A program made the position numbers and the translations under genes. The notes under the pieces are model-generated. The model saw only the letters and a list, made by a program, of their open reading frames with translations, did not search any database and was not told where the DNA came from. Positions 52,578 through 55,884 of a stretch of DNA of 64,000 nt are shown one piece after another. The DNA comes from Peptococcaceae bacterium BICA1-7 (GTDB taxonomy: Bacteria > Bacillota > Desulfotomaculia > Desulfotomaculales > Desulfocucumaceae): positions 62,001 through 126,000 of the forward strand of contig JUEB01000024.1 of the NCBI GenBank assembly GCA_000802095.1, written 5' to 3'. The stretch's first letter is position 1, and the number at the start of each line of letters is the position of its first letter.

Positions 52578-52714
52578 TTGAGCTGATTAATTTATGATGT
52601 TATACTTTTCATGAAAACAAAAGCTGAGATGAGATAGATGAGCTGAGACAGTTAATGCTTTAGACGACTCGGAGCTGCGGGGTGAGGACCGGCGTGTTAG
52701 TGCTGGTCTTTTTT
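52578..52714 (+). promoter_or_regulatory. Promoter, GAG/TAG-triplet leader and terminator: attenuator or ~100-nt small RNA upstream of pabABC
   Basis: A good sigma-A promoter (TTGAGC 52578-52583, 17 bp, TATACT 52601-52606) is followed by five (G/T)AG triplets spaced by one or two bases (52626, 52631, 52635, 52640, 52645), three more at 52661, 52672 and 52684, and then a terminator: GACCGGC (52687-52693) with GCTGGTC (52702-52708) and six T. Regularly spaced GAG/TAG triplets before a terminator are the mark of TRAP-controlled tryptophan/folate leaders. pabA starts 300 bp further on. Alternatively a free small RNA. Confidence 0.5.
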
Positions 52715-52762
52715 ATTTGAAAGGAATGGGGACACACCTGCTGAAGTCAAGGCATTTCTTTT

Positions 52763-52938
52763 GGGACAGGAATGTCCCCGATCGGGATGGCGGGGATGCA
52801 CCGAACAATGATAATGGTACATGGAGTTTGACTAGGTCGGAGGAATGTCCCCGATAGTATGGCTGACAGCGGGAGGAATTTTCCGGATATGTGACTCGGT
52901 ATCGGCTTTGGGGACAGGAATGTCCCCGATCGGGATGG
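52763..52938. repeat. REP-like hairpin repeats (GGGGACAGGAATGTCCCC)
   Basis: GGGACAGGAATGTCCCCGAT occurs at 52763 and 52911 (full hairpin, both followed by CGGGATGG), with a half copy AGGAATGTCCCCGAT at 52841. GGGGACA/TGTCCCC forms a 7-bp stem with a four-base loop, as in REP sequences tied to RAYT-type transposases. No transposase gene lies in this window. The region between 52715 and 53010 holds no gene. Confidence 0.6.
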
Positions 52939-53016
52939 CTTTTGTCCTCCCCCCAATTCCTAATAGCTCAAAGCTTAAGGCTGACAGCTGATAGCTTTAA
53001 AGGAGCGTGATTGCCG

Positions 53017-53613
53017 ATGATACTAATGATAGACAACTATGACTCCTTTGTGTACAACCTTGTATCGTACCTGAGGGAAATGGGACAGCAAGTGGCGGTT
53101 TGCCGCAATGACAGTATAGATGTAAGAGACATTGAAAGAATGAGTCCGGGTCATATAATTATCTCACCCGGGCCCTGTAGTCCGGATGAGGCAGGAGTTT
53201 CCCTGGAGGCGGTCAGTCATTTTGCCGGGAAAATTCCCATACTGGGAGTATGCCTGGGCCACCAGTCCATTGGACAGGCCTTCGGGGGCAGGGTGGTCAG
53301 GGCGGACCGGCCCATGCACGGCAAGACCTCGGTTATACGGCATGATGGCCGGGGAGTTTTTAGAGACCTCCCCCAGGAACTGGTGGTGGGCAGATACCAC
53401 TCACTGGTGGTAAGCCCCCTGGGGCTGCCGGACTGCCTGGAGGTCACTGCCCTGACCGGCTCCGGCGAAATTATGGGATTTCGTCACCGGGAACATTATA
53501 TCGAGGGTGTTCAGTTTCACCCCGAGTCAATACTAACCAGTTACGGCAAAGAAATGCTTAAAAATTTTCTCCACCCCCGGGAGGTTTGCCAGAGTGAGCT
53601 CATTTCTGCTTGA
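53017..53613 (+). CDS. pabA: Aminodeoxychorismate/anthranilate synthase glutaminase subunit
   Basis: 198 residues, class I glutamine amidotransferase: MIDNYDSFVYNLVSYL start, ISPGPCSPDEAG oxyanion loop, Cys79 nucleophile in LGVCLGHQSIGQAF, His-Glu in VQFHPESILT. It supplies ammonia to PabB (or TrpE). ATG 53017; a TTG at 53011 lies nearer the AAAGGAG and is also possible. It overlaps pabB by 20 bases. Confidence 0.93.
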   Translation: MILMIDNYDSFVYNLVSYLREMGQQVAVCRNDSIDVRDIERMSPGHIIISPGPCSPDEAGVSLEAVSHFAGKIPILGVCLGHQSIGQAFGGRVVRADRPMHGKTSVIRHDGRGVFRDLPQELVVGRYHSLVVSPLGLPDCLEVTALTGSGEIMGFRHREHYIEGVQFHPESILTSYGKEMLKNFLHPREVCQSELISA

Positions 53614-55051
53614 AAAACTGGCTATAAAGCCGGATACAACTGCTCTTTTCAACCCCGTAAAAGACCTTCCCGGCAGCATTTTGCTGGACAGCAGCATGAT
53701 GGTGGAAGGGTTGGCCAGATACTCTTTTATTATGGCCGACCCCTTTCTGGTGGTGACATCCCGGGGCAGTGAGATAATGCTGGAAAGAAGATCCGGCCCC
53801 GGGGACTGTGAGACCGAGATTATAAAGGGCAACCCCCTGGACACAATAGGGTGTCTTATGAAAAGGTACCGGATGAAGGAAATCTGCCAGTTGCCGTTCT
53901 TCGGAGGGGCGGCGGGGTTCTTTGCCTACGACCTGGGCCGGCAGCTGGAAAAAATACCCCAATTGGCCCTGGATGACTCCGGCACTCCCGACTGCTGGCT
54001 GGGTTTTTATGATGTGGTGGCCGTTGCAGATCATCTGGAGGACTGTGTGTATATAGCTTCCACGGGATTTCCCGAGGAGGAGCCCGGCCGGGCTGCCAGA
54101 AGGGCCCGGGAGAGGCTGGAGTGGCTCAAAGATGTTGTCACCGGCTCATACAATTCTTCAATTATTGCAGCCGGGAGAGTTAGCAGTGCCCTGGCTGCCC
54201 GGGAAGGCGATGAGGCGGCAGGGCTGACCTCCGATTTTAACCGGGAGAGCTATTGCCGGGTGGTGGAAAGGGCAAGAGAGTATATAGCGGCCGGGGACAT
54301 ATTCCAGGTCAACCTTTCCCAGCGCTTCCGCCTGCCCAGAAGGGGAGACCCGTGGGAGGTATATAAGTGCCTTAAGAGGATAAACCCGGCGCCCATGTCG
54401 GCCTACTTAAACTGCGGGGACCTGCGCGTGGTCAGTTCGTCAATGGAGAGATTTTTAAAGGTTACAGACAGAATGGTGGAAACAAGGCCCATCAAGGGCA
54501 CCCGTCCCAGGGGCGGGAGCCCCGGGGAAGATGCGCTTATGCGTCAGGCCCTATGGAATAGCGACAAGGACAGGGCCGAGCTGGTGATGATAGTTGACCT
54601 GGAGAGAAACGACCTGAGCAGGGTTTGCGTCCCCGGATCGGTAGCCGTTCCGGAGCTCTACAGAATAGAGGAGTACCCCACGGTGTTTCACCTGGTATCC
54701 ACCGTTACAGGCAGGCTGGAGGAGGGCCGGGGAACTGTGGATCTGCTGAAGGCCTCCTTTCCCGGCGGGTCTATTACCGGCGCGCCAAAAATAAGGGCCA
54801 TGGAGATTATTGAGGAGCTGGAGCCGGTAAGGCGGGGGCTATACTGTGGTTCCATCGGCTACCTTTCCTTTAATGGCGACGCCGACCTTAATATTGTTAT
54901 AAGAACACTGGTGTTTAGCGGAGACAGTATATATCTGCAGGTGGGAGGGGGTATAACCATAGACTCAGACCCCGCCGCAGAGTATGCAGAAACACTGGAC
55001 AAGGCCAGGGCCCTGGTCAGGGCACTGAGGCTGGAAGGGGTGCTGGACTGA
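53594..55051 (+). CDS. pabB: Aminodeoxychorismate synthase component I
   Basis: 485 residues, chorismate-binding family: SFIMADPFLVV N-terminal part, then AAGDIFQVNLSQRF, METRPIKGTRPRG-type motif (here VETRPIKGTRPRG), VDLERNDLSRVC, and PGGSITGAPKIRAMEII. The lysine in PIKGT is the residue that forms the covalent intermediate in aminodeoxychorismate synthase; anthranilate synthases have alanine there, so PabB is favoured over TrpE. GTG 53594 lies in the pabA 3' end. Produces 4-amino-4-deoxychorismate for folate. Confidence 0.93.
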   Translation: MSSFLLEKLAIKPDTTALFNPVKDLPGSILLDSSMMVEGLARYSFIMADPFLVVTSRGSEIMLERRSGPGDCETEIIKGNPLDTIGCLMKRYRMKEICQLPFFGGAAGFFAYDLGRQLEKIPQLALDDSGTPDCWLGFYDVVAVADHLEDCVYIASTGFPEEEPGRAARRARERLEWLKDVVTGSYNSSIIAAGRVSSALAAREGDEAAGLTSDFNRESYCRVVERAREYIAAGDIFQVNLSQRFRLPRRGDPWEVYKCLKRINPAPMSAYLNCGDLRVVSSSMERFLKVTDRMVETRPIKGTRPRGGSPGEDALMRQALWNSDKDRAELVMIVDLERNDLSRVCVPGSVAVPELYRIEEYPTVFHLVSTVTGRLEEGRGTVDLLKASFPGGSITGAPKIRAMEIIEELEPVRRGLYCGSIGYLSFNGDADLNIVIRTLVFSGDSIYLQVGGGITIDSDPAAEYAETLDKARALVRALRLEGVLD

Positions 55052-55884
55052 TGGAAACAGATAAAATTGTCTGTTTGAATGATTGCTACATGCCGGCAGG
55101 GGAGGCCGCCGTGCCTGTCGCCGACCAGGGTCTTCTCTACGGGATGGGCATATTTGAGACTATCAGGGTCAGCGGGGGACTTCCCCGTCTGGTGGGACTG
55201 CACCTGTCCCGCCTGCAGAAATCCGCCGGGGAGTTGGGGCTGGAGGTGCCGTACAGCCCGGGGGCAATAGAGGAGATGCTTTACCGGACGGCCCAAAAAA
55301 ACGGTATAACAGAGGGAGGTCTGCGCCTCACCCTGACCGCGGGGGGCGGTCAGTGCCGGCCCAGCCTTCTGGTGCAGCCCAGGGATCAGACCTATGGAGA
55401 GGAAATGTACAGCCTCGGCATAAGGGCGGGGTTCTCCCCCTATGTAAGGAATGAAAGGTCGCCCCTGGTAAGGCACAAGACTTTAAACTATTATGAAAAC
55501 ATTATGGCCAGGCGGCTGGCGGCCTCCTCGGGGTGGGGAGAGGCACTGTTCCTAAATTGCTCCGGGAACCTGGCCGAGGGCTCGGTGAGCAATGTGTTTC
55601 TGGTCAGAGATGGCCGGGTGATTACCCCGGAGTCCGGGTCCGGCCTGCTTCCGGGTATAACCAGACGCAGGGTGATAGATGCCTGCGCCTCTTTAAAAAT
55701 ACCGCTGGAGGAGAGGGTAGTGGGGCCAGGCCGGCTGTACGGGGCCGGCGAGATCTTTTTAACCAACTCCCTGATGGGAGTAATGCCCCTTACAAGGCTG
55801 GAAAACACTCCCGTAGGAAACGGCGTCCCCGGAGAGATTACCCGGCTGGTGGCGCAAGAGATGGAAAGGCTGGCAGCACTTTAA
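55051..55884 (+). CDS. pabC: Aminodeoxychorismate lyase (class IV aminotransferase fold)
   Basis: 277 residues. VADQGLLYGMGIFETIRV is the family start; the PLP lysine lies in VRHKTLNYYENIMARR, and the C-terminal Glu/Thr contacts are in NLAEGSVSNVFLVRDG and LLPGITRRRVIDA. It makes p-aminobenzoate and pyruvate. A D-amino-acid transaminase is the main alternative, but the overlap TGATG with pabB supports PabC. A strong terminator follows. Confidence 0.9.
   Translation: METDKIVCLNDCYMPAGEAAVPVADQGLLYGMGIFETIRVSGGLPRLVGLHLSRLQKSAGELGLEVPYSPGAIEEMLYRTAQKNGITEGGLRLTLTAGGGQCRPSLLVQPRDQTYGEEMYSLGIRAGFSPYVRNERSPLVRHKTLNYYENIMARRLAASSGWGEALFLNCSGNLAEGSVSNVFLVRDGRVITPESGSGLLPGITRRRVIDACASLKIPLEERVVGPGRLYGAGEIFLTNSLMGVMPLTRLENTPVGNGVPGEITRLVAQEMERLAAL

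Follow-up and report, generated by a model that had tools for sequence, protein, structure and literature searches.

A predicted TRAP attenuator of PABA-synthesis genes, built on a conserved RNA core, in Peptococcaceae bacterium BICA1-7 and its relatives

In the window (the whole 64 kb stretch of Peptococcaceae bacterium BICA1-7 DNA analysed here), a short leader with its own promoter, a cluster of (G/T)AG triplets and an intrinsic terminator stands upstream of the pabA, pabB and pabC-like genes. Triplets of this kind are the signature of RNA bound by TRAP, the product of mtrB. The locus therefore raises the question of what the leader does: does it attenuate transcription of the pab genes in response to tryptophan, or does it end as a small RNA with a function of its own? 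An earlier note on this DNA had proposed both.

Anatomy of the leader and TRAP in the same genome

The promoter and the five triplets at 1-2 base spacing described in the earlier note are found as described (Table 1). Promoter-like hexamers can also be read by eye at the corresponding place in the pab leaders of other species. The triplets of the array start at 52626, 52631, 52635, 52640 and 52645, with spacers of 2, 1, 2 and 2 nt, and a scan of both strands finds no other array of at least four closely spaced triplets in the 64 kb window. Additional (G/T)AG occur beyond the array at 52661, 52672 and 52684. The first two can stand as the further triplets counted previously, but the third (GAG, 52684-52686) is better read as the 3' side of a hairpin, P1, since in other lineages it becomes GCG as its partner changes too. 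The T-run hairpin is likewise borne out as a terminator (52687-52708, then T6), and its stem covaries across species, with GC, AU, CG and UA pairs at one and the same position.

The array sits 370 nt upstream of the pabA start codon, an ATG. The gap of ~300 bp between terminator and pabA, filled in part by repeats, is seen as previously reported; it contains two copies of a 34-bp repeat and is a lineage-specific trait. The closest relative (L003) is without the repeats, and its start codon lies ~60 bp past the terminator. The repeat, which includes the palindrome GGGACAGGAATGTCCC, looks like a small mobile or REP-like element. Assignment of the first two downstream genes rests on scores above the model cut-offs (Table 1); the pabC-like gene matches aminodeoxychorismate lyase and related aminotransferase models, every one of them below the curated cut-off.

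The mtrB gene, which the earlier note had suggested looking for, is present once in the genome (E 1.2e-38). The encoded protein matches solved TRAP structures and keeps the segments FHHSEKLDKGE and IKIRG, which we take to carry the RNA-contacting residues; judged by its sequence, it is clearly TRAP. The trp operon of this genome is preceded by a canonical TRAP attenuator with 11 (G/T)AG triplets at 2-nt spacing. Together, mtrB and this textbook trp attenuator indicate, within the limits of sequence evidence, that TRAP control is in use in the organism.

Table 1. Coordinates of the pab leader, its downstream genes and related features (window positions unless another locus is given)
Feature	Position	Strand	Remarks
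Sigma-70 type promoter, TTGAGC-17-TATACT, TG before -10	52578..52606	+	Identical in congener L003
Array of five (G/T)AG triplets, GAG at GAG a TAG at GAG ct GAG	52626..52647	+	5-nt register; predicted TRAP binding site
Last triplet, TAG, 4 nt before hairpin P1	52661..52663	+	AG never varies; in relatives the first base is mostly G or T
Conserved core, ACGACTCGGAG-N-YGGGGTGAGGACCGGC	52664..52694	+	Near invariant in 45 aligned leaders and 64 cores
Hairpin P1, CUCG (52668-52671) paired with UGAG (52683-52686)	52668..52686	+	Pairing and double changes
Intrinsic terminator, GACCGGCG (52687-52694) paired with TGCTGGTC (52701-52708), then T6	52687..52714	+	
Repeats GGGGACAGGAATGTCCCCGATCGGGATGGC, between terminator and pabA	52758..52939	+	Outside the conserved leader; absent from congener L003
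pabA/trpG-type glutamine amidotransferase (aminodeoxychorismate synthase component II)	53017..53613	+	TIGR00566, 264 bits (cut-off 121)
pabB, aminodeoxychorismate synthase component I	53594..55051	+	TIGR00553, 369 bits (cut-off 328)
pabC-like class IV aminotransferase/lyase	55051..55884	+	Family level only
trp-operon TRAP attenuator	L063:7050-7260, i.e. G000:C26 about 76050-76260	-	11 (G/T)AG triplets
Array-less pab leaders of family f46	L208/L229 (one complete genome), L206/L226, L204/L214/L230, L209/L233, L234, L235, L237		

Distribution, triplet register and co-occurrence with mtrB

Elsewhere in the order, the homologous pab operons of other families show this layout at the matching position. 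When 84,980 species were scanned with a pattern, 31 stretches came up, from Desulfofundulus, Desulfotruncus, Desulfoscipio, Desulfallas, Moorella, Pelotomaculum, Candidatus Formimonas and unnamed MAGs. With a covariance model, the leader is found in 39 of the 113 genomes of the order at scores of at least 60 bits, clearly apart from the lower-scoring hits to other TRAP arrays, and a second model extends it to further families of the phylum. Three MAGs labelled Actinobacteria, Armatimonadetes and Deltaproteobacteria (L096, L106 and L115) appear to correspond to G002, G089 and G019, which are placed in the order; the labels look wrong.

The gene behind the leader is strikingly constant. Among 71 distinct leaders, 69 have enough downstream DNA to be tested, and the next gene is pabA in 48, pabB in 21 and any other gene in 0. 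Although pab leaders were the source of both the pattern and the models, the scans themselves ignored the downstream gene, so that this context is informative. In most relatives the gene starts 65-100 nt after the core. Desulfofundulus thermobenzoicus has on one contig two different pab leaders (L102 and L109), ~11 kb apart, with a pabA after each. In Moorella mulderi and what is probably the same species (L103 and L205), the leader passes straight into pabB codons, and both terminator and pabB start are gone, apparently through a natural deletion within the attenuator.

Conservation of the triplets in related species, the other check suggested at the outset, is found as well. In 42 distinct arrays there are 90 pairs of (G/T)AG spaced by 2 nt, against 15.8 +/- 3.8 (sd) in dinucleotide shuffles (z 19.6). 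The commonest spacers, 2 and 7 nt, amount to a single 5-nt register with some triplets missing. The pab arrays, with a median of six (G/T)AG, are shorter and less regular than trp arrays; relatives typically have 6-9 triplets, and the window has five close ones plus others. The layout is thus more than chance, because its position and sequence are conserved before pabA or pabB in dozens of species and because the 2-nt spacing lies far above that of shuffles. By these measures the pab-leader triplets are a real TRAP-type array and a predicted binding site.

Within the order, mtrB is found in 38 of the 39 leader genomes versus 105 of 113 genomes overall, and since the order is this rich in mtrB, the co-occurrence says little there. 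Outside the order, all leader genomes tested have mtrB, compared with 200 of 398 sampled genomes of the phylum; the species are related, and no probability is attached to this association. The exception within the order is a congener (G002), in which the leader is present and mtrB was not found; its assembly is fragmented and still contains a trp TRAP array (L070). Conversely, three genomes of genus g27 (G069, G070 and G072) have mtrB absent or truncated, and the leader is absent too. In G072, an amidotransferase gene lies directly behind a trpE/pabB-type gene.

A conserved core with hairpin P1

The most unusual part of the leader, missed in the earlier reading, is the segment between the last triplet and the terminator. 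In 45 aligned leaders this core is near invariant, ACGACUCGGAG-N(4-7)-YGGGGUGAGRACC, and far more conserved than the triplet array. Within it, the P1 helix CKCG/UGMG is paired in 256/256 cells across 64 distinct cores (64/64 sequences). One UA pair is replaced by GC in 12 sequences from two lineages (CUCG/UGAG to CGCG/UGCG). The change is seen in G038, where CUC becomes CGC together with a distant GAG becoming GCG, and the same double change is typical of the whole of family f46, in another part of the phylum. A competing hairpin, ACUC/GGGU, is the first choice of RNAalifold and fails in 12 of the 64 sequences. The P1 part of the core ends exactly at the start of the terminator stem, with zero nucleotides in between. 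The core is absent from the trp and other TRAP attenuators seen in this analysis, and when the window and 16 loci of related genomes were scanned against Rfam (THF riboswitch, T-box and others), there was no credible match and none over the family threshold. On this comparative evidence, the core with P1 is a new conserved RNA element.

Family f46 separates the core from the array. Seven distinct leaders of this family keep promoter, core, terminator and pab gene, and have zero or one (G/T)AG, too few for a TRAP-regulated leader defined by multiple triplets. mtrB was found in 5/5 of the genomes with such leaders that were tested (G181, G375, G460, G419 and G439). These leaders (L206, L208, L209, L204, L234, L235 and L237) share a short motif, approximately CACCWCGGG, 15-25 nt upstream of the core in place of the triplets. 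Since the core persists here without the array, it is more than a piece of the TRAP site: it may feed in a second regulatory signal, or it may belong structurally to the terminator and have outlived the array.

Folding gives little guidance on how array and terminator communicate. At equilibrium the terminator dominates whether or not the triplets are masked by TRAP, and the free RNA favours the terminator in most leaders. The same calculation fails to separate two states for most of the trp leaders used as a control, so folding is not diagnostic. No strong antiterminator joining the triplets to the 5' arm of the terminator was found by folding in the pab leaders, with a method that misses most trp antiterminators too. 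In nascent-RNA folding, the CUC of the core pairs with the array at 0.64 versus 0.47 in shuffled arrays, but f46, where CGC replaces CUC, breaks this pairing and so argues against it as a mechanism common to all the leaders. Another candidate antiterminator, YGG/CCR, is complementary in most sequences, yet its covariation is little above that of shuffles. The missing obvious antiterminator is not fatal to attenuation, because in the B. subtilis trp leader TRAP can cause termination even without the attenuator hairpin (PMC3913778).

Predicted mechanism, alternatives and the wider TRAP regulon

The best reading of these data is a PABA-synthesis TRAP attenuator built on a separate conserved RNA element. 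With mtrB present and with array, terminator and pab context all conserved, this upholds the attenuator proposed in the earlier note, and TRAP control of the pab leader appears likely. We put the probability that the leader acts in cis to attenuate transcription of the pab operon (PABA, a folate precursor) under control of tryptophan-bound TRAP at roughly 0.7. At high tryptophan, the TRAP ring would wrap the array and raise termination before pabA; at low tryptophan, more polymerases would read through into the pab operon. P1 and its loop would be a second component that sets terminator efficiency and, as one family keeps the core but not the array, may take an input of its own.

This last point can be carried further. 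Core, loop and terminator may form an independent cis-regulatory RNA that binds a small molecule of the folate or chorismate pathway, or another protein, the TRAP array then being an addition through which tryptophan enters as the second signal. Conservation of the core far above that of the array points this way, as do its restriction to pab genes (69/69), its absence from the trp and other TRAP attenuators seen, and the retention of core, terminator and pab gene in the seven array-less leaders despite mtrB in the genomes tested. Against it, the core is small (~30 nt plus the terminator), a candidate sensor to which no ligand, pocket or partner has been assigned, and the leaders without an array, all from a single family, could have degenerated or be constitutive. 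We regard independence of the core as a tentative alternative, and hold equally tentatively its more specific form, a small RNA sensor of a folate- or chorismate-pathway metabolite or of a protein, which would control PABA synthesis by transcription attenuation and be fused to a TRAP array in most species.

The remaining explanations fare worse. The conserved segment could be a DNA element, or an ordinary terminator behind a purine-rich leader free of TRAP control, as the strength of the terminator in free RNA might suggest; the 5-nt register of the triplets, the compensatory changes at the RNA level and the link to mtrB make this improbable. TRAP might instead act on pabA translation. The idea has a precedent in B. 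subtilis trpG, whose ribosome binding site is blocked by TRAP (see references B31 and B154 in PMC4347634), but in the window and in relatives the triplets do not overlap the ribosome binding site: array and core come before an intrinsic terminator that covaries, and the ribosome binding site comes after it, so that control of translation in place of transcription is very improbable. The stand-alone RNA of ~100 nt that titrates TRAP, raised in the earlier note, draws on the strong terminator and the 300-bp gap in BICA1-7. It finds no support among relatives, where pabA or pabB always comes next (69/69) and in most lies close by, the gap being due to lineage-specific repeats; moreover, one weak array would have to compete with the 11 triplets of the trp leader in the same genome. 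We consider such an RNA hardly credible.

The pab leader has the sequence features of a TRAP attenuator and resembles those of trp operons (B. subtilis trpEDCFBA and the trp leader of BICA1-7) in its promoter, its (G/T)AG array in 5-nt register, its intrinsic terminator, the association with a chorismate-branch operon and the presence of mtrB. It differs in having fewer and less regular triplets and no antiterminator seen, in always preceding pab genes, and in the invariant core with P1 between array and terminator, which trp leaders do not have. With trpG (pabA) in the B. subtilis folate operon it shares a homologous target gene and, by prediction, the regulator. The sites of action would differ, a ribosome binding site there and a region upstream of a terminator here, and in 21 of 69 leaders pabB comes first, with no amidotransferase gene ahead of it. 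THF-I and THF-II riboswitches are likewise leader RNAs of folate genes, but neither the window nor the leaders of relatives gave a credible Rfam match. T-box leaders also work through terminators, and GGGGUGAGGACC superficially resembles a T-box sequence; the pab leader, however, is only ~100 nt long and has neither a specifier domain nor an Rfam T-box match. No description of the pab leader was found in the searchable open literature.

TRAP-type arrays with terminators also precede other genes across the phylum (L171, L077, L081, L082; L166, L169, L170; L207, L216, L218; L089, L090; L074, L075, L080, L172; L079; L088, L167, L168, L175; L173). These genes encode indolepyruvate ferredoxin oxidoreductase, a TrpX-type ABC transporter, DAHP synthase, a PaaK-like CoA ligase, a membrane protein and possible Trp transporter, an amino acid permease preceded by two tandem arrays, and a stand-alone trpB product. 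From these arrays, the TRAP regulon of the phylum looks much wider than in Bacillus.

The pab leader would carry TRAP attenuation beyond tryptophan genes to PABA and folate synthesis in acetogens and sulfate reducers (Moorella and Desulfofundulus, for example); in some organisms of this kind, carbon metabolism depends on folate. The core, kept without a TRAP array in one family, is a compact candidate for a second signal at the chorismate branch, where tryptophan and folate synthesis part. If the sensor reading is true, the fused leader would read tryptophan and a second signal at once.
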